A stretch of DNA of 64,000 nt from an uncultured Bacteroidales bacterium (GTDB lineage Bacteria > Bacteroidota > Bacteroidia > Bacteroidales > UBA932). Location of the stretch: NCBI GenBank assembly GCA_944322575.1, contig CALUPK010000001.1, positions 109,319 to 173,318 on the forward strand, read 5' to 3'. Below the pieces are notes generated by a model. That model saw only the letters and a program-made list of their open reading frames with translations, was not told the DNA's origin and did no database searches. The translations under genes were made by a program, and so were the position numbers. Below are positions 55,938 through 63,793 of the stretch, one piece after another (the stretch's first letter is position 1; each line of letters starts with the position of its first letter).

Positions 55938-57104
55938 ATGAAATCGAAATACTACTGGATTTGTTTATTTTCCCTTCCGTTGATCACAGCCCTTATTGCG
56001 ACGTGCGGAAAAAGGGATGAGGCGCGTGTAAGTCTTACAGTAAAGGGTGCTCCTGACAGTACGGAAGTCGTAGTATCACGTTTGGCCTTGAATCAGATGC
56101 AGGTGCTGGATACGCTGTATACCTCTAAGGAAAAGGTTTCCGCTGAGGTACCCGTGTATCCCGGTTCTCCTGAATTCGTATATCTGACTTACGGCAATGG
56201 GGGCAGTGCCGCTCTCTTGCTGCAGAACAGGGACAGAGTGACGGTTTCCGCTGATATGACAGGAACAGACGTGAGGATTGAAGGGTCTGAAGAGTCTGTT
56301 CTGATGCAGAAAGTGGATTCAGATATCCGTGCTTTCAATGCGGCCTTTGATTCTTTGACCTACGAGCTTGCCGCTGTTGGCGAGGACGGAAGTCAGGAAG
56401 AGATTGCACGTCTGAAACGAGAGATGGGTGCCCTCTATGTCAAGTGCAAGCAGGAGGCGGTCAAATACGTCGTGACTCATTCCAAATCACTTACTATAGT
56501 TCCGGTTCTGTATCAGAAGACTTCCGGCGGTCTCCCTATCTTCGCGCAGGCCACCGATGCCATCATCATGGAAAGGGCATACGACTCTCTGCGCACGGTG
56601 TATCCGTCGTCTCCGTATATTGTCTCGTTGGCTGACGAGGTGAGCGCCAGACGCAATGCCCTGGAGATTCAGAACCGTATGGCCTCAGCCGAGGAAGTGG
56701 ACTTTCCTGAGATTGTCCTCAATGACGTGAATGGTCAGCAACAGTCCCTTACAGCCCTTAAGGGGAATGTGGTCGTCCTTATGTTCTGGGACGCAGCAAA
56801 TGTTCAGCAGAGAGTATACAATACGGACTTAAAAATCCTGTATGAAAAATACCACAGCCGCGGCCTGGAAGTATATCAGGTCGGCTTGAATTCGGACAAG
56901 ACTGCCTGGGCTTTACAGGTTAAGGAGCAGGAGCTGCCCTGGATCAGCGTATGCGATCCCGCGGCAGGAGCTTCTGTAGGAGCAATGGTGTACAATGTCT
57001 CCCAGCTTCCGGCCATGTACTTAATCTCGCGTCAGGGCAGTATCGAGTCCAAGGATGTGTTCGATATGCGCCTGCTTGAGACTGAGATACGCCGCCTGTT
57101 ATAG
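55938..57104 (+). CDS. Thioredoxin-fold lipoprotein without a CxxC motif
   Basis: A 388-residue lipoprotein. With the start at 55938 the signal peptide ends in the lipobox LIATC with Cys23. An N-terminal DUF4369-like beta domain and a helical stretch lead into a C-terminal TlpA/AhpC-like thioredoxin fold (about residues 250-388). Where the active site WCxxC is expected after VVVLMFWD, the sequence reads AANVQQR, so both cysteines are missing. The cis-proline segment SQLPAMYLIS is kept. It is therefore unlikely to be a disulfide oxidoreductase. Its stop overlaps that of the convergent tsaB. Confidence 0.85.
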   Translation: MKSKYYWICLFSLPLITALIATCGKRDEARVSLTVKGAPDSTEVVVSRLALNQMQVLDTLYTSKEKVSAEVPVYPGSPEFVYLTYGNGGSAALLLQNRDRVTVSADMTGTDVRIEGSEESVLMQKVDSDIRAFNAAFDSLTYELAAVGEDGSQEEIARLKREMGALYVKCKQEAVKYVVTHSKSLTIVPVLYQKTSGGLPIFAQATDAIIMERAYDSLRTVYPSSPYIVSLADEVSARRNALEIQNRMASAEEVDFPEIVLNDVNGQQQSLTALKGNVVVLMFWDAANVQQRVYNTDLKILYEKYHSRGLEVYQVGLNSDKTAWALQVKEQELPWISVCDPAAGASVGAMVYNVSQLPAMYLISRQGSIESKDVFDMRLLETEIRRLL

Positions 57105-57836
57105 TCTGCGGTCAGGATGCAGCACCGCTTCGAGCTTCTTCGAAGGGTCTGCTGCAATGAATTCCTTGAGATAGAAGGGTTCGAAGTACGCTGTGTCTTC
57201 GAACCTTTTTTGTTGCAGGGACCGGAAGGCAGGTATGGCCATATCTATGGCCTCAGGATGGGAAGGCAGGAATACACATCTGCTCCGGTAGTGTTCTGGA
57301 AGTATGTCCATAAACTTGGCGGCACCGTCTCCGGTGAGAATTACTCTGTGGAACTTCTCGAACTCTGCTGTAAAGGTGTCAGGAGTGAGAACCACGGCCG
57401 CTGTTTCTGAGATGCGGTCTCCATGTATGTCATAGAGCGCAGTATACACCTCCATGCGGCGTGCGTCTATCATGGGTATTATGACGGAGTTTTCTGTAGC
57501 CTCTTTTACGGCTCCTGACCTGATGGCCCCAAAGGCGAGGATAGACAGTGTCCCGACACTTATGAGAGGAATCCCTGTGCCGAAGCAGAGCCCTTTTGCA
57601 GTGGAAACGCCGACACGCAGTCCGGTGTAGGAGCCCGGACCGGAACTTACTGCTACCGCAGCAAGTTCTCTTAACCGTATGCCGGCACCGGCAATGGTGT
57701 CCTGAATCATGGGCGCGAGCCTGGAGGCCTGGCTCCTCGCCTCTGTTATGTGTCCTGTGGAGAGAATCTTTTCTCCGTCAGCTACGGCTGCAGAGCATAC
57801 GTCCGTTGCTGTCTCGATAAGCAGTATTTTATTCAT
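57099..57836 (-). CDS. tsaB: tRNA threonylcarbamoyladenosine biosynthesis protein TsaB
   Basis: TsaB is the partner of TsaD in forming t6A at position 37 of ANN-decoding tRNAs. With the start at 57836 (MNKILLIETATDVCSAAV) the protein is 245 residues, standard for the family. The motif SSGPGSYTGLRVGVSTAKGL near residues 64-83 is diagnostic. An in-frame ATG at 57890 is rejected because it lies well inside the end of the HlyD gene; the chosen start overlaps that gene by 8 bp. Confidence 0.95.
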   Translation of the reverse strand: MNKILLIETATDVCSAAVADGEKILSTGHITEARSQASRLAPMIQDTIAGAGIRLRELAAVAVSSGPGSYTGLRVGVSTAKGLCFGTGIPLISVGTLSILAFGAIRSGAVKEATENSVIIPMIDARRMEVYTALYDIHGDRISETAAVVLTPDTFTAEFEKFHRVILTGDGAAKFMDILPEHYRSRCVFLPSHPEAIDMAIPAFRSLQQKRFEDTAYFEPFYLKEFIAADPSKKLEAVLHPDRRL

Positions 57837-59058
57837 TGTTCTCTTTTTTGTCTTTTTCAGTCTGAGGAAGGACTTCCATTCCGTCCTCAAGAATCTTGCT
57901 GATGGTACTGTATGGTCCGGTAACTATCTCGACCGAATCGGCTGAGCAGAGACCGGAGATAATCTCTATGTTTCCGATGTCCTGAATGCCGGTTACGACT
58001 TTCGTTTTGTGGACTGTCGAAGTGCTTCTGTCTAATACGTAGATACATCCGTCAGGGGTGACAGCCTGCAGCGGAACAGTTGTCACGCCGTCCTTTCGCT
58101 CTGTTTCGATCTCTACGGATGCTGACATCCCCGGTCTGAATGGAATGGGGTCTGTCTTCAGCAGGTCGGAGTAGGAGTCCTGTAGGATACGTACCTTGAC
58201 CTCAAAATTGGTGACGTCTGTCATGGCTGTAGTAGTGCTGCCGAGGTTCTTGGCGGAATTGGCAATCTGGGTGACCACGCCCTTGAAAGTTCTGCCCGGG
58301 TATGCGTCCACTTCGATGTCCGCAGTATCTCCCTTGGAGATGCGGATGATGTCGTTCTCGTTGACGTCCACTAACACTTCCATCATGTCGAAATCTGCAA
58401 TACGGAGCATCTCAGTACCGGCCATCTGTGAAGTGCCGACTACTCTCTCTCCTTTTTCTACGGTCAGGCTTGAGATAATACCGTCTATAGGTGAGTAAAT
58501 TACGGTCTTTGTAAGATTCTCCTCCGCCTCGTCGAGGGAGGCTACGGCGCTTTCGATGTTGTATTCTGCCGCATTGAGCTGCTCGCGGGCCATTTCATAC
58601 TCGGCCGTGGATGCCTGGAACTCCTGAAGGGAGATGGCACGCTGCCCGTAAAGCTGCTTGTTGCGCTGATAGTTCTGCTCGGCCTGAGTCAGGCTGGCTT
58701 TCTGCTGCTGGTACTGTGCCTTAGTGGCGTTGAGTGTAGCCGCAGCTCTGTCGCGCAGGGATATGTAGACATCCTGCTTGATCATGATGATGAGGTCTCC
58801 CCGGCTGACTCTGTCGCCTTCCTCGATGTTGAGCTGGATAATCTCACCGGATACATCCGGGCTGATTTTGACTTCAGTTACAGGGTGTATCTTGCCGTTG
58901 GCAGGAATCCGCTCGACAATGGTGCCGGTGTCAGGATACCCGACGGTCACAGGTTCTCCCTTGTCCGAGTTGAGAATTCCGTAGAGCACTGCGGCTGCTG
59001 TTATTACGGCTATGACGGTCATTAATCGCCTCAAGCCTTTGTTCTTCTTCTTTTTCAT
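57829..59058 (-). CDS. HlyD/MacA-type periplasmic adaptor
   Basis: A 409-residue membrane fusion protein with one N-terminal membrane helix (about 10-26). The lipoyl-like half motif includes KISPDVSGEIIQLNIEEGDRV near 64-84. A coiled coil (roughly 100-180) is followed by VIYSPIDGIISSLTVEKGERV near 187-207 and the beta-barrel. It most resembles MacA-type adaptors. It lies 3 bp after TolC on the same strand. No MacB-like permease is in the window, so either the C39 exporter upstream or a pump elsewhere is its partner. Confidence 0.9.
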   Translation of the reverse strand: MKKKKNKGLRRLMTVIAVITAAAVLYGILNSDKGEPVTVGYPDTGTIVERIPANGKIHPVTEVKISPDVSGEIIQLNIEEGDRVSRGDLIIMIKQDVYISLRDRAAATLNATKAQYQQQKASLTQAEQNYQRNKQLYGQRAISLQEFQASTAEYEMAREQLNAAEYNIESAVASLDEAEENLTKTVIYSPIDGIISSLTVEKGERVVGTSQMAGTEMLRIADFDMMEVLVDVNENDIIRISKGDTADIEVDAYPGRTFKGVVTQIANSAKNLGSTTTAMTDVTNFEVKVRILQDSYSDLLKTDPIPFRPGMSASVEIETERKDGVTTVPLQAVTPDGCIYVLDRSTSTVHKTKVVTGIQDIGNIEIISGLCSADSVEIVTGPYSTISKILEDGMEVLPQTEKDKKENNE

Positions 59059-59061
59059 GTG

Positions 59062-60396
59062 CTATAACGTGAGGGGGATGCCTTTGTAAAAGTCTATAAT
59101 CTTCAGCTGGAATACGAACTGGTACTTCGCCTGGATGTATTCTGACTGTGCCTTGAACAGATTGACCTTGGCTACAGTGTAGTCCGTGCCGTTAAGAGTA
59201 CCTGTGTTGAACTTCTCCTGTACGTATCGGAAAGACTCCTGCATGGACCTGACGTTGGCCTCCGCTGCTTCCATCTTCCGGAAATAAGTGTCGGCTTCTG
59301 TTACTGCTGTCTGAATCTCTTTGTACAGATTCTGCTGTTTCATCTTCAGGTCTATCTCAAGGCTCTGGCGCGAGAGCTTGGCGTTCTTGACATTGGTCCG
59401 GACATTCCAGTTGTTGAATATGGGAATGCTCAGACCGATGCTGACCGCCGGGTTGATGTTGTCGCGGAACTGCTCGAAGAACGGGTAGGTGCTTCCGTCC
59501 GGAGCGAAGGACGAGGAACTGTAGAATGTGCCGTAGCTGGCGGACAGGGACAGTTTCGGCCAGTACTGACCTTTGGCGGTCTTCAGCTCTATGTCTCCGC
59601 GCTCGAGGGCCATACGGGCACTCTGTATGACGGGCAGGTCCTGTGCCGACTCGTAGATCTGGCCGATGTCATCGCCTAAGTAGTCTGCGACAGTACCGTC
59701 AATGTCCGGTGTCTCGATCAGGAAGTCATCGCTGTATGGCAGGTCCAGGAGCTGTTGCAGTGCGAGGGTGTTGGTGATAACCTGGTTTTCAGCAGTGACT
59801 ACCTGCACTCTCTCGGAGGCGAGCTGTGACTCTATGTCTAAAAGGGAGGTGTAGGGCTGACTGCCGGCCTCTACCAACAGCAGTGTGCGGTCCCTCTGTT
59901 CTGAGATGGACCTGAAACTCTCCTGTGAAGCGGCAAGCATCTCTTTGGAAAGGAGAATCTGGAGATAGCTGCGGACTATGGATACGGATATTTCGTCCTT
60001 CAGCCGTTCTACTTCCTGCAAGGATATCTCTACGCTTTTCCGGGAGCTTCTGAGATTGTAGAGCTTGGAGAGTCCGTCCAAGAGGTAGATGGATGTGTTG
60101 GCGGATGCACTGGTACTCTGGGACAGCTTGTTGTGAATAATCTCGAGGTTCTGCAGGTCTACCGAGCGGCCCCAGTTGAGACTGTGGCCGAAGGAGGCGT
60201 TCAGAGTGGGAACAAAGTTGAGCTTGTTCTGCAGGAGCTGATTCTCGCTTCGGGTCACTTCGACGAGCTGCTGCTTGATGGTAAGGTTGTTTGCCCATGC
60301 ATGCTCGATGCACCTGTCCAGAGACCATGTGTCCTGGGATATGAGCTTGAGCGGCATGGCCAGCAGCAAAAAGATGACGGCAATGTGGACTTTCAT
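59062..60396 (-). CDS. TolC-family outer membrane channel
   Basis: A 444-residue outer membrane efflux protein with a signal peptide (MKVHIAVIFLLLAMPLKLIS) and two repeats of the TolC helical hairpin. Examples are WSLDRCIEHAWANNLTIKQQ at about 23-42 and the C-terminal SLEIDLKMKQQNLYKEIQTA region. The ending YQFVFQLKIIDFYKG is typical of Bacteroidetes TolC proteins. It precedes the HlyD gene by 3 bp. A -7 box sits only 4 nt before its ATG, and a strong terminator separates it from the peptide genes upstream, so it may have its own leaderless transcript. Confidence 0.92.
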   Translation of the reverse strand: MKVHIAVIFLLLAMPLKLISQDTWSLDRCIEHAWANNLTIKQQLVEVTRSENQLLQNKLNFVPTLNASFGHSLNWGRSVDLQNLEIIHNKLSQSTSASANTSIYLLDGLSKLYNLRSSRKSVEISLQEVERLKDEISVSIVRSYLQILLSKEMLAASQESFRSISEQRDRTLLLVEAGSQPYTSLLDIESQLASERVQVVTAENQVITNTLALQQLLDLPYSDDFLIETPDIDGTVADYLGDDIGQIYESAQDLPVIQSARMALERGDIELKTAKGQYWPKLSLSASYGTFYSSSSFAPDGSTYPFFEQFRDNINPAVSIGLSIPIFNNWNVRTNVKNAKLSRQSLEIDLKMKQQNLYKEIQTAVTEADTYFRKMEAAEANVRSMQESFRYVQEKFNTGTLNGTDYTVAKVNLFKAQSEYIQAKYQFVFQLKIIDFYKGIPLTL

Positions 60397-60487: not shown

Positions 60488-60661
60488 TTACCAGCTTGTC
60501 GCGGCCTGCGGTCTGCGGTCCAGAGTCAGCAGGTCGTACAATGCCCTGCAGGCAGCGCCTACGAGGCGGCCGAGGAGTCTTACGACTCTTCCTTCAGGAG
60601 TGCCTGCGCCGCCTATGACGGAGCACGCCTGGGATCTTCCGATGGTTATGAACTGTTCCAT
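60488..60661 (-). CDS. Double-glycine peptide B (bacteriocin-like candidate)
   Basis: A 57-residue reading frame beginning MEQFITIGRSQACSVIGG. The leader is 18 residues and ends in Gly17-Gly18. The mature part would be 39 residues, basic (six Arg against three acidic residues), with an amphipathic stretch VVRLLGRLVGAACRALYDLL and a GxxxG motif at Gly31-Gly35. It starts 15 bp after peptide A and is followed by a strong terminator. The N-terminus resembles that of peptide A (MEQFITIG against MERIIIG). The family is unknown, and the leader is shorter than classic double-glycine leaders. Confidence 0.6.
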   Translation of the reverse strand: MEQFITIGRSQACSVIGGAGTPEGRVVRLLGRLVGAACRALYDLLTLDRRPQAATSW

Positions 60662-60676
60662 AGTCTCTTATTTTAG

Positions 60677-60862
60677 TTATTTTGCCAATGAACTCACGAA
60701 CTCATGTCCGCTCCATCCCTCGATGAAGCCGATGAGGAACTGGTCGATGTGCTTCTTTACGAAGTTGGCGACGATGCTCCATACGCTGCCGCCGTAGACA
60801 GTTGTGCTCAGGTCGGAATTAATACATTCAAACCCTTCATACCCGATAATAATTCTTTCCAT
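60677..60862 (-). CDS. Double-glycine peptide A (bacteriocin-like candidate)
   Basis: A 61-residue reading frame. The 25-residue leader ends INSDLSTTVYGG with Gly24-Gly25, with a hydrophobic residue at -4 as in classic leaders of C39-processed peptides. The mature part would be 36 residues starting SVWSIVANFVKKHIDQFLIG, rich in aromatic and hydrophobic residues, with a GxxxG motif at Gly45-Gly49. It lies 45 bp downstream of the C39 exporter gene, with a GC-rich hairpin between them. No modification enzyme is nearby, so an unmodified peptide is the simplest reading. No known bacteriocin was recognised. Confidence 0.65.
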   Translation of the reverse strand: MERIIIGYEGFECINSDLSTTVYGGSVWSIVANFVKKHIDQFLIGFIEGWSGHEFVSSLAK

Positions 60863-60883
60863 GATGTTTGATTTTAATGTGAT

Positions 60884-60907
60884 GCCGCGGATAAAAGGCG
60901 CCGCGGC
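60884..60907 (-). promoter_or_regulatory. Hairpin between exporter and peptide genes
   Basis: GCCGCGG (60884-60890) and CCGCGGC (60901-60907) form a 7-bp GC stem with a 10-nt loop directly after the exporter stop codon. No T-run follows on the minus strand, so it looks like an RNA-stability or processing element rather than a terminator. Confidence 0.4.
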
Positions 60908-63004
60908 TTACGCCTGTGAATGCGCATTCTTTGTATTTATGTCGATGATATGGTCTGCTATGCTTTCTGCTTCCTTTTCGTGAGAGATAAGCACGACGGT
61001 CACTTTTCTCTCCCTGAGGGTGCGTACTGTGTCCAAGAGCCTTTGTCTGCTCTCGCTGTCAAGATGTGTGGCCGCTTCATCTAAGATGAGGACTTTGGGC
61101 TGGCGGTACAATGCCCTTGCGAGGGCTATCTTCTGTCTCTCGCCTCCTGAGAGACGGCAGGCGTGCTCTCCGGTGTGGGCAAGTACACCCCCGGGCAGAG
61201 AGTCTATAGTGCGGCTCAGTCCGGCTATGGCGCAGGCTGCGGCAACGGCCCTGATGTCGTAGTCCGTGTCTCCCATGACGATGTTGTCGAGTATGGTACC
61301 GTCAAATATCTCGGGTCTCTGCGGCACGATGGAGATGAACTCTCTCCACCGTTGCGGCCGGATGGTGCGGATGTCGATTCCTCCTGCTGTTATCCGGCCC
61401 TCCTGAGGCTCGTAGCCTTTCATAAGCAGAGCCGCTATGGTGCTTTTGCCGCAGCCGTTGCTGCCGCGGATGAGGTTGATACTGCCGGGAATGATGTCGA
61501 AAGAGAGGTTGTCTATGATCTTCATCCTTCCAGGGAAAGCGAAGCTCAGGCCTCTTGCCTCTATGGCGTCAGCGGCATCGGGTGTGAAATCGATATATTC
61601 TCCGCTGTCTTCCGGCTCAAGGTCGAGGATGTCGAAAATCCTTTCTGCACTTATTCGGGCCTCGGCAATCTCCCGGGTGCTTTCAATAAGCATGACTATG
61701 GGGGATGTAAAGATTGAGGAAAAAGAGAAGAAAGAAACAAGTTCCCCCACAGTCAGCTCTGAATGCAGAACGAAAAAAGCCCCGGCTACTATTGTGGTTA
61801 TGTTGATGAGGCGGCTCATCATGTCGGTGGAGCAGGATATCATGGAGGCGAAGATGCCGCCCCTGTATATAGCCGAGGCTGTCCTGTAATACTGTCCTTC
61901 GATATGGCGTGAGGCCTTGTCGTCCGAGTTGAAGTATTTCACGGCTCGGGCGGAGGACAGCCATTCTATGTTGTTCTGTTCAAATTTTGCATTTTCTTCT
62001 ATGATTTCCCGGTTCAGCTTCCGGTTTACTTTGTCCGAGACGAGATACAGCAGAATAAACACCGGAGCGGAAGCAAGGGTGATAAGGGTCAGTTTCCAGT
62101 CAAAAGTCAGGAGTATGGCGATGGCCGCGGCAAGAGTGATGCAGCTTATGGCCATAAGCAGCAGGCGTCCGGTTATGAACGAACGTATGCGGTATGCGTC
62201 CGATACCCTTGAGTTGAGTTCTCCGCTTCCCATCGAGTCGAAGAAAGATACGGGAAGAGAGAAAAGTTTGCGGAAGTAGCTCGTGATAAGGCGGCAGTCG
62301 ATCTGGAGGCTGATCCTTACCAAGAGGGTGGAACGGACAAATGAGATGAACCAGGCAAGTCCGGTGAGAATTAGCAGGACTACACCGGTCATGATGACAG
62401 CGTTGCGCTCTCCTGAGGGGAGTACATCGTCGATGATCCGCTGTAGGAACACGGATGTGCTGAGGGTGGCGGCGATGAATGCCGCTGAACCCACAAGGAC
62501 GAGGAGCATCTCTTTTTTATAGTACAGGAGCAGCTCCCTGAACCGGCTCATGACAGGTGTGCTGTGGTCGCCCTTGCGGAACATGGGAGACGGACTTAAG
62601 GCTACGATAAAGCCGCTCCACTCGTCCTCGAGTGCTTCAGGCGCTAACTTGTGGATCCTTCCGTCCTCCGGGTCCATGACTGTCGCAGTCTCCGCGTCTA
62701 AGCCGTAAAGGACGACGTAGTGCAGCCATCCGTTCTTTTTCTGCAGGTGGAGTATTACCGGCTTGGCGGCACCTTCGAGGTCTTTGAGGCGTTTCTTCTT
62801 TGCCTTGAGACCGGCTGCGTCCATCCCGAGCTTGCCGCAGGCGTCTATTATTCCCTGCATGGTCGTGCCGTCCGTGCCGGTGCCGCAGGCTTCCCTTATC
62901 CTCATCAGCGGCAGCCGCAGGCCATAATAAGCACATACGGATGCGACGCATGCAGCGGCGCAGTCGCTCTTGTCGTGTTGTCTGATCTGTATCTCCTTCT
63001 TCAT
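60908..63004 (-). CDS. C39-peptidase ABC exporter (peptide processing and secretion)
   Basis: A 698-residue peptidase-containing ABC transporter that removes double-glycine leaders and exports the cargo. The N-terminal C39 protease has Gln9, catalytic Cys15 (QHDKSDCAAACV), His95 (GWLHYVVLYG) and Asp111 (MDPEDG), so it should be active. The membrane domain covers about 165-435. The ATPase has Walker A GSNGCGKST at 514-522, signature LSGGERQ at 618-624, Walker B VLILDEA and His675. The start at 63004 (MKKEIQIRQ) is preferred over 63106 because it matches the C39 domain start and clears the 48-residue gene. The two peptide genes follow at once. Confidence 0.93.
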   Translation of the reverse strand: MKKEIQIRQHDKSDCAAACVASVCAYYGLRLPLMRIREACGTGTDGTTMQGIIDACGKLGMDAAGLKAKKKRLKDLEGAAKPVILHLQKKNGWLHYVVLYGLDAETATVMDPEDGRIHKLAPEALEDEWSGFIVALSPSPMFRKGDHSTPVMSRFRELLLYYKKEMLLVLVGSAAFIAATLSTSVFLQRIIDDVLPSGERNAVIMTGVVLLILTGLAWFISFVRSTLLVRISLQIDCRLITSYFRKLFSLPVSFFDSMGSGELNSRVSDAYRIRSFITGRLLLMAISCITLAAAIAILLTFDWKLTLITLASAPVFILLYLVSDKVNRKLNREIIEENAKFEQNNIEWLSSARAVKYFNSDDKASRHIEGQYYRTASAIYRGGIFASMISCSTDMMSRLINITTIVAGAFFVLHSELTVGELVSFFSFSSIFTSPIVMLIESTREIAEARISAERIFDILDLEPEDSGEYIDFTPDAADAIEARGLSFAFPGRMKIIDNLSFDIIPGSINLIRGSNGCGKSTIAALLMKGYEPQEGRITAGGIDIRTIRPQRWREFISIVPQRPEIFDGTILDNIVMGDTDYDIRAVAAACAIAGLSRTIDSLPGGVLAHTGEHACRLSGGERQKIALARALYRQPKVLILDEAATHLDSESRQRLLDTVRTLRERKVTVVLISHEKEAESIADHIIDINTKNAHSQA

Positions 63005-63035
63005 GTCCTTCCCTCCCGAAAATGTTAAAATGTGA

Positions 63036-63182
63036 TTAAAAGACAGGGAGAAGGGGCATGACTGACAGTAGCAGCGCAGCCGCGACAGCCAAGATGTACC
63101 ACACATATCTGCCTTTAGCCACTGGCGGCAGCATGGTGTCTGCCGTAAGACCGATTCTTTCCTTCAAACTCAATTCTTCCAT
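63036..63182 (-). CDS. 48-residue membrane peptide upstream of the exporter
   Basis: A short reading frame begins MEELSLKERIGLTADTMLPP and ends with one hydrophobic helix (YVWYILAVAAALLLSVMPLL). It lies 31 bp before the exporter start, so it is likely the first gene of the operon. A small membrane protein here could be an immunity protein or an exporter accessory, but no similarity is known to me. It has no Gly-Gly leader motif. The frame is supported by position, a promoter-like box 27 nt upstream and a sensible topology. Confidence 0.55.
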   Translation of the reverse strand: MEELSLKERIGLTADTMLPPVAKGRYVWYILAVAAALLLSVMPLLPVF

Positions 63183-63209: not shown

Positions 63210-63217
63210 CAAAGGAA
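63210..63217 (-). promoter_or_regulatory. Possible -7 box of the peptide-export operon
   Basis: The minus strand reads TTCCTTTG, one mismatch from TAnnTTTG, 27 nt before the ATG at 63182, in a very AT-rich stretch. Confidence 0.35.
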
Positions 63218-63239: not shown

Positions 63240-63292
63240 TACCACTTTTATCAAAACTTTAAATAATTTTACAAAAGTGGTAATTCATAGTG
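63240..63292. promoter_or_regulatory. AT-rich inverted repeat upstream of the peptide-export operon
   Basis: TACCACTTTT (63240-63249) and AAAAGTGGTA (63283-63292) form perfect 10-bp arms 33 nt apart. No T-run follows the right position on either strand, so an operator for a dimeric regulator is more likely than a terminator. It lies between the cvpA-like stop and the operon promoter. Confidence 0.5.
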
Positions 63293-63295
63293 TTG

Positions 63296-63793
63296 TCAGG
63301 TGTTGAAAAGTTGCTTTAAATAAGGGAATACCGCATCTGTGATAGAGGATATGATCTGCACTCCCTTGGACTTGGCCATCTGCTCGGGAGGAATAATCGT
63401 GAACCAGGTTGTGTTCACGTATTCTATGACGGAGATAACGACTCCTATAAGCAGGACGACGGCGGAGACCGAGAGCAGGACGCCGAGGAGGCGGTTGATC
63501 CAGCCGAGGGTGGTGATCTTGATGACCTTCTCGAGGAGGCGGCTCAGCAGGACTACGCAGAGGCAGACCACGACTATGATGACGATAAACGAAAGCACCT
63601 TCACTACGTTCTCGGAGAGGGTGGGCGTCACGCGGTGGAGCCAGCCCGAGAGCATGGCCGAGAATCTGCCTGCTAAGAATATGCCGAGAATGAGTCCCAC
63701 GATGCCGCCGAGCTGCCGCATCAGGCCGTCCTTGATACCCTTGAACACCGCCAGGGCCAGGAGTACGAGAATGATGATATCTATAACTGTCAT
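63296..63793 (-). CDS. CvpA-family membrane protein
   Basis: A 165-residue inner-membrane protein with about four helices and the family's N-terminal pattern (VIDIIILVLLALAVFKGIKDGLMRQLGG, parts near residues 2-29). CvpA of E. coli was first linked to colicin V production and envelope processes. In Bacteroidetes it is a housekeeping-type gene. Its location next to a peptide-export locus is suggestive but is probably chance because it has its own promoter and is separated by an AT-rich gap. A TATCTTCG box lies 6 nt before its ATG. Confidence 0.88.
   Translation of the reverse strand: MTVIDIIILVLLALAVFKGIKDGLMRQLGGIVGLILGIFLAGRFSAMLSGWLHRVTPTLSENVVKVLSFIVIIVVVCLCVVLLSRLLEKVIKITTLGWINRLLGVLLSVSAVVLLIGVVISVIEYVNTTWFTIIPPEQMAKSKGVQIISSITDAVFPYLKQLFNT

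Follow-up and report, generated by a model that had tools for sequence, protein, structure and literature searches.

Paired double-glycine peptides and a tripartite C39 exporter form a conserved, candidate class IIb-style system in uncultured Bacteroidales

Two-peptide systems built on GxxxG motifs have mostly been described as weapons in Gram-positive bacteria. In the characterised class IIb bacteriocins, both peptides carry a GxxxG motif or a GxxxG-like version with Ala or Ser (PMC6382864, PMC6957408), and C39 domains remove double-glycine leaders during export (PMC10352776). Bacteroides dorei is reported to have class IIb-named genes beside an ABC transporter (PMC11944543), and the accessible text of PMC13289728 contains nothing on class IIb. 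The literature searched, mostly without subscription papers, held no description of the pair presented here. We describe an operon in a 64,000-nucleotide stretch of DNA (the window) from an uncultured Bacteroidales bacterium (GTDB lineage Bacteroidales; UBA932; GenBank assembly GCA_944322575.1, contig CALUPK010000001.1, positions 109,319 to 173,318). It encodes two adjacent double-glycine leader peptides, A and B, an ABC exporter with a C39 protease domain, a TolC-family channel, a periplasmic adaptor and a small predicted membrane protein, S. Our best single guess, to which we give slightly less than an even chance, is that the operon makes and secretes a membrane-active A–B pair in the class IIb style that antagonises related bacteria.

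The peptide genes and the three exporter genes share one run on the minus strand of a 2.3 Mb draft genome, in the order cvpA, S, C39 ABC exporter, A, B, TolC, adaptor and tsaB (Table 1). A preliminary description made from the sequence alone had named B, A and an ABC exporter, and each is present where it was placed; the exporter has three Pfam domains. It had also called the protease intact: Gln9, Cys15, His95 and Asp111 stand in the window and in all 42 surveyed loci with a complete exporter N-terminus, a count that omits one truncated exporter and one locus left without an exporter by a contig end. At the level of sequence, the genes, the leaders, the intact protease and the exporter set are established.

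The A–B pair is real and conserved. Homologous pairs beside C39 exporters were sought in relatives and found at 44 loci in 11 genera, 19 of them in the genus of the window and 25 in other genera. Twenty of the latter came from 46 genomes outside the genus that matched a B profile (A3), and five from 13 loci fetched by exporter similarity (11 genomes). Because those 20 loci were picked through B, only the presence of A is an independent finding there. At each of the 44 loci A and B stand together, A first. Neither frame is broken in any of the 19 genus genomes or at the 25 other-genus loci, and the outcome that the preliminary description would have taken as refuting, both small genes broken beside a kept exporter, was not seen. 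Within the genus, B was detected in every genome at E ≤ 0.1 (weakest 9.5e-4) and the exporter in 18 of 19 at E ≤ 1e-100; the nineteenth (G006) has a partial exporter at a contig end with both peptides after it. A single-sequence search with A matched 16 of 19 genus genomes and none of 129 other relatives, and reading the loci of the three missed genomes revealed a diverged A in each. Among the 13 loci fetched by exporter similarity, five have both peptides and eight have neither; these eight pair-less C39 loci have different surroundings and were excluded from the 44.

Both mature peptides conserve a GxxxG motif. It lies at Gly45–Gly49 in A (GFIEG) and Gly31–Gly35 in B (GRLVG), as the preliminary description had reported. 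Shuffling of the window mature parts produces a GxxxG by chance in 15% (A) and 26% (B) of cases, so paired motifs in one sequence are weak evidence. Across the survey all A peptides but one (43 of 44) and 40 of the 44 B peptides have the strict motif. Counted by distinct sequence, it is strict in 40 of 41 A and 38 of 42 B, compared with 13.0 and 10.2 expected from shuffling, the sequences being related and not independent. Conservation of the motif is greater than chance would give. The non-strict motifs at the aligned place are GxxxA in one A and AxxxG in four B. The double-glycine leader has a single exception, an A (genome G018) that has AG in the aligned columns, with GG following three residues later. 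Across 16 genus rows, which omit three near-identical genomes, the only invariant positions are the second leader glycine, G45, G49 and W50 in A, and M1, F4, G17, G18, G31, L33, G35, D43 and P51 in B. Across 30 rows of the 44, spanning the 11 genera, these shrink to the second leader glycine and G45 in A (M1, G24 and G49 at 90% or more) and to G17, G18 and G35 in B, where the other motif glycine is Gly or Ala.

Judged from substitution patterns, purifying selection acts on A, B and S. Pooled whole-gene ratios of nonsynonymous to synonymous polymorphism (pN/pS) over 16 genus loci were 0.43 for A, 0.44 for B and 0.48 for S. Every scored pair fell below 1 (112 for A, 59 for B and 96 for S, out of 120); pairs in which synonymous change was absent or close to saturation had been dropped. 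We take A, B and S to be translated genes because all scored pairs lie below 1. The frames are short, and a single GxxxG arises as readily by chance as given above, as would be the case for chance open reading frames (ORFs) beside an exporter for something else. The pN/pS values and the intact pairs in 19 of 19 genus genomes and 25 other-genus loci reject that explanation, whose probability we consider negligible.

A membrane-active A–B pair is the reading we judge most likely because two co-encoded short helices with one small-xxx-small motif each are the make-up of class IIb bacteriocins. AlphaFold2, run with the 30 rows, predicts a single helix at residues 22–46 of B, with predicted local distance difference test (pLDDT) block means of 87 and 95 over residues 21–40, and with low confidence (mean pLDDT 61) helices at 16–19, 27–37, 39–51 and 53–59 of A, the third containing its GxxxG. 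The preliminary description had called B basic and amphipathic, and so it is: mature B of the window has a net charge of +3 by residue count, and the hydrophobic moment of its helix 22–46 is reached by 0.06% of shuffles (5% for A). Over the 44 loci mature B has a mean charge of +2, is positive in 35 and amphipathic at P < 0.05 in 36. In the favoured model, precursors A and B would be translated side by side, the C39 domain would cleave both after Gly-Gly, and the ABC protein, adaptor and TolC would carry the mature peptides (36 and 39 residues) across both membranes. Outside the cell, the peptides would fold as helices at a membrane surface and pack against each other by their GxxxG faces. As a 1:1 pair they would disturb the membrane of susceptible, probably related, cells. 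S would most likely protect the producer.

In all five loci read in one genus of the survey (g21, loci L112–L116), the longest B frame begins 13 bases inside the A gene, a hint of translational coupling. The A peptide of this genus has an additional stretch ahead of its GxxxG part.

Modification of the peptides is very improbable. Bacteroidales ribosomally synthesised and post-translationally modified peptides also use double-glycine leaders and C39 exporters (PMC10352776), so A and B could in principle be precursors of that kind, with their enzymes encoded elsewhere. No modification enzyme was found between cvpA and tsaB of the window, and the alignments mark no conserved Cys, Ser or Thr column in the mature parts.

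A surface role is unlikely, if less so than modification. Here the mature peptides would remain on the producer as glycine-zipper assemblies, either as a surface or biofilm component or in contact-dependent inhibition resembling that of Caulobacter Cdz, a precedent from a Gram-negative bacterium in which both proteins carry GxxxGxxxG zippers (PMC5380434). Type I export through a tripartite system, the pairing of GxxxG peptides and a small membrane protein nearby all suit this idea. The details fit it less well: each peptide has one conserved GxxxG with charged residues inside, unlike the extended small-hydrophobic zippers of CdzC and CdzD, and S has one predicted membrane stretch where CdzI has three.

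S is a plausible immunity protein by analogy with CbnZ, a 42-residue membrane protein that gives immunity to a two-peptide bacteriocin (PMC6957408); S is also a candidate exporter accessory. A hydrophobicity screen with reading found an S-like gene in 32 of 42 evaluable loci, comprising 18 of 18 in the genus and 14 of 24 in other genera, where four of the 14 proteins are longer, at 101–109 residues. S matched no Pfam model.

A shared CTTTG element and an inverted repeat, the sole site of its kind in the six genomes searched, suggest that the operon has a promoter of its own and a private operator, both predicted. CTTTG[CT] occurs between cvpA and S in 18 of 18 aligned genus loci; we take it to resemble the Bacteroidales -7 box, from whose consensus the window copy deviates. 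Upstream of this element lies the inverted repeat CCACTT-N26/27-AAGTGG, both half-sites of which were read in 9 of 18 genus loci. The pattern has 0.02 expected occurrences in the window and is the sole such site in each of six genomes searched, all picked because the repeat is visible at this place; a control with the pattern reversed gave a single match in each of two of these genomes. Sigma-70 and terminator scans stayed near chance level, and an Rfam scan found nothing.

The pair appears to descend vertically. Protein distances of the exporter correlate with those of cvpA (r 0.915), A (0.897), B (0.864), TolC (0.757) and the adaptor (0.676), and 0 of 2000 permutations reached any of these values. 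That the exporter tracks cvpA, A and B more closely than TolC and the adaptor fits vertical descent with some exchange of outer pump parts. No mobile origin appeared in searches of A against 72,556 plasmid records and of B against 50,697 phage records, neither of which gave a match.

Several observations weigh against a bacteriocin. Most bacteriocins are not vertical or core in distribution; this pair is core to its genus (19 of 19), vertically distributed and mostly present as one match per genome. Window A and B matched no Pfam or NCBIfam model at E ≤ 1. Mature A has a mean charge near 0 over the 44 loci, mature B ranges from -4 to +6, and A is significantly amphipathic in 8 of 31 scored loci, 13 A peptides not being scorable with the window size used. 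The helices of A are predicted at low confidence. The motif glycines of B sit about 93 and 133 degrees off the centre of the hydrophobic face and so could face a partner rather than lipid, which is compatible with pairing and not proof of it. S is missing from 10 of 42 evaluable loci. The mature parts give no sign of diversifying selection, with pooled pN/pS of 0.50 (A) and 0.46 (B), slightly above the leaders at 0.39 and 0.41 (A leader pairs below 1 in 105 of 109). We infer bacteriocin activity from the architecture. A core physiological or signalling role would account nearly as well for single copy, vertical descent and the absence of diversifying selection.

The pair may be a secreted signal or a self-directed physiological factor, such as a density signal or a switch for differentiation or biofilm formation, that leaves the cell by the route described above and is perceived by kin. 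Core status, a fixed position ahead of tsaB (43 of 44 loci), the tracking of cvpA by the exporter, mature parts under purifying selection with no sign of an arms race, a sole inverted repeat in each of six genomes and the loci lacking S all favour this. A precedent comes from Synechococcus, in which biofilm formation is driven by GG-motif proteins together with a C39 transporter (PMC4997328). On the other side, a pair with two conserved helix-packing motifs exceeds what a signal needs, and beyond the motifs no short peptide segment is kept between genera. No receptor or regulator gene was seen in the stretch from cvpA to tsaB in the window, to which this search was confined. We regard a signal or self-directed factor as possible, short of probable. 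A related proposition, which we put forward with similar reserve, is that a whole clade of gut Bacteroidales has fixed a class IIb-type architecture as a core secretion system, passed on by vertical descent and with regulation specific to the operon. It would act on the producer's own population, as a signal, envelope or developmental factor, and not serve as an optional weapon. The antagonistic A–B pair stays our leading reading, and the absence of S does not exclude it, since bacteroidetocins, too, appear to lack immunity proteins (PMC6671954).

Peptides of this type are widespread in the family and extend beyond it. The preliminary description had expected such an arrangement to be unusual in Bacteroidota, an expectation that the survey does not support: a family-wide A profile matched 152 of 249 sampled family genomes at E ≤ 0.01, in 14 of 25 genera, and similar pairs stand beside C39 exporters in two other families. 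The 14 genera are the 11 whose loci were read, g17 (best 2.6e-8), and g22 and g24 (0.009 each). We searched 344 genomes across the order, at least five of them from the family itself. An A profile (A5) matched 14, four in the family and 10 outside; six of the outside matches were read and comprise three A-like double-glycine peptides (L163, L165, L166), one other double-glycine peptide (L172) and two irrelevant hits. The wider flanks of two of the three A-like peptides, in two other Bacteroidales families, show an A–B pair followed by an adaptor and a C39 exporter, in a different gene order (L204, pair at 904-1328; L205, 5722-6127). These pairs suggest a wider set of two-peptide systems in Bacteroidales. 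The third of these A-like loci (L203) had no exporter match within 12 kb.

Over the order, the narrower B profile A3 matched 2 of 344 genomes, both in the genus. A broader one (A4; 91 of 344 at E ≤ 0.05) was discarded: most of the matches listed fall within ORFs of some 330 residues, and the two that were read (L200, L201) look like polyprenyl synthases, as do the PDB matches. An apparent second B locus in the window genome (L064), one of eight further weak B matches in the genus, overlaps a 583-residue open frame and was taken as chance. Among the 30 family rows, five A rows weakly matched the NCBIfam model of lactococcin G-beta (best E 0.0012), no class IIb model was among the NCBIfam families listed for B, and single rows weakly matched other families, such as AMEP412 and the CTB family bacteriocin. 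A PDB profile search returned no bacteriocin among its matches.

The neighbourhood is largely kept. TolC follows B in all but two of the 44 loci, and in one of these two a contig end cuts the locus; the adaptor is present in 42 of 44. cvpA lies on the same strand within about 650 bases upstream of the exporter in 38 of 42 evaluable loci; three of the remaining four have cvpA downstream on the opposite strand. The tsaB-like gene lies on the same strand downstream of the pair in every locus except one cut by a contig end, and within about 110 bases of the adaptor match in 42. Synteny is in this sense established by sequence. E. coli CvpA takes its name from colicin V production, as does the Pfam family Colicin_V that the window homologue matches; the link of cvpA to the C39 exporter may be functional or mere neighbourhood.

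Two loci are of note. In genome G031 (L147), no TolC or adaptor match occurs in the fetched stretch, and tsaB comes directly after B. In genome G034 (L149), one of the eight pair-less loci, cvpA adjoins a different C39 system with an upstream adaptor, and the contig ends about 600 bases past the exporter.

Table 1. Features of the operon and its flanks, in window coordinates
Feature	Position	Strand	Description
S	63036..63182	-	ORF; 48 aa, one predicted transmembrane stretch; first gene behind the predicted promoter
C39-peptidase ABC exporter	60908..63004	-	698 aa; Pfam Peptidase_C39, ABC_membrane, ABC_tran
Peptide A precursor	60677..60862	-	61 aa: 25-aa leader ending GG and 36-aa mature part with G45xxxG49 W50
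Peptide B precursor	60488..60661	-	57 aa: 18-aa leader ending GG and 39-aa basic amphipathic mature part with G31xLxG35
TolC-family outer-membrane channel	59062..60396	-	444 aa; Pfam OEP; TIGR01844 match below its cut-off
Periplasmic adaptor, RND_mfp / HlyD_D23 type	57829..59058	-	409 aa; TIGR01730 above cut-off, Pfam HlyD_D23
Inverted repeat CCACTT-N27-AAGTGG	63242..63280	.	In the cvpA–S intergenic gap; likely operator
CTTTG-type promoter -7-like element, 5' of S	63210..63217	-	CTTTG[CT] common to 18/18 aligned genus upstream regions
cvpA homologue, Pfam Colicin_V	63296..63793	-	Upstream linked neighbour; candidate role only
tsaB-like gene, Pfam TsaD family	57099..57836	-	End of the gene run; housekeeping neighbour

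In a clade of uncultured gut Bacteroidales, then, the pair is a stable trait of the chromosome, kept along with a dedicated tripartite exporter and what appears to be a dedicated promoter. A direct test of the pair as an antimicrobial, a two-peptide signal or a surface factor in Bacteroidota needs no more than two short synthetic peptides, and natural variation over 11 genera would help map the pairing residues.

The locus resembles several known systems and coincides with none. Like the class IIb bacteriocins lactococcin G, plantaricin S and carnobacteriocin XY, it has two adjacent short double-glycine precursors with a GxxxG or GxxxG-like motif in each, a C39 exporter and a small membrane protein in the operon. 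Unlike them, it sits in a Gram-negative host, includes TolC and an adaptor, has a vertical core distribution and encodes peptides that, in the window, match no curated model; its activity and immunity are putative. The class IIb-like reading of the preliminary description is strongly supported for the two-peptide, GxxxG and C39-exporter architecture, borne out at 44 loci, while its bacteriocin role is one that we infer. Cdz shares a Gram-negative host, two small GxxxG proteins, type I secretion and a small membrane immunity protein; it differs in its extended GxxxGxxxG zippers, N-terminal regions described as resembling RTX signal peptides, three-helix CdzI and a cluster with no TolC gene (PMC5380434). 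Bacteroidetocins are likewise Bacteroidales double-glycine peptides handled by a C39 ABC protein, but they are single class IIa-like peptides with cysteines, accompanied by a protein with five transmembrane segments and mostly by a thiol oxidoreductase (PMC6671954); neither gene was found between cvpA and tsaB of the window. Mature A of the window has no Cys and mature B has one; across the 44 loci, one mature A and no mature B has two or more. EbfG and PteB of Synechococcus elongatus combine several small GG-motif proteins with a C39 transporter in a Gram-negative cell for a biofilm function, a functional alternative with no homology claimed (PMC4997328). A further comparison is with TIGR03949, the NCBI class IIb model for the lactobin A/cerein 7B family: A-type peptides of three other Bacteroidales families pass it, mainly through their leaders, and two of the three are paired beside an adaptor and a C39 exporter, whereas window A and B do not match. 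Set against class IIb, what is new is that the host is Gram-negative, the export tripartite and the system fixed in the chromosome, with peptides that in the window match no curated model. It is not a new category, given the precedent of Cdz, the class IIb name that TIGR03949 gives related Bacteroidales peptides and the class IIb-named genes of Bacteroides dorei.

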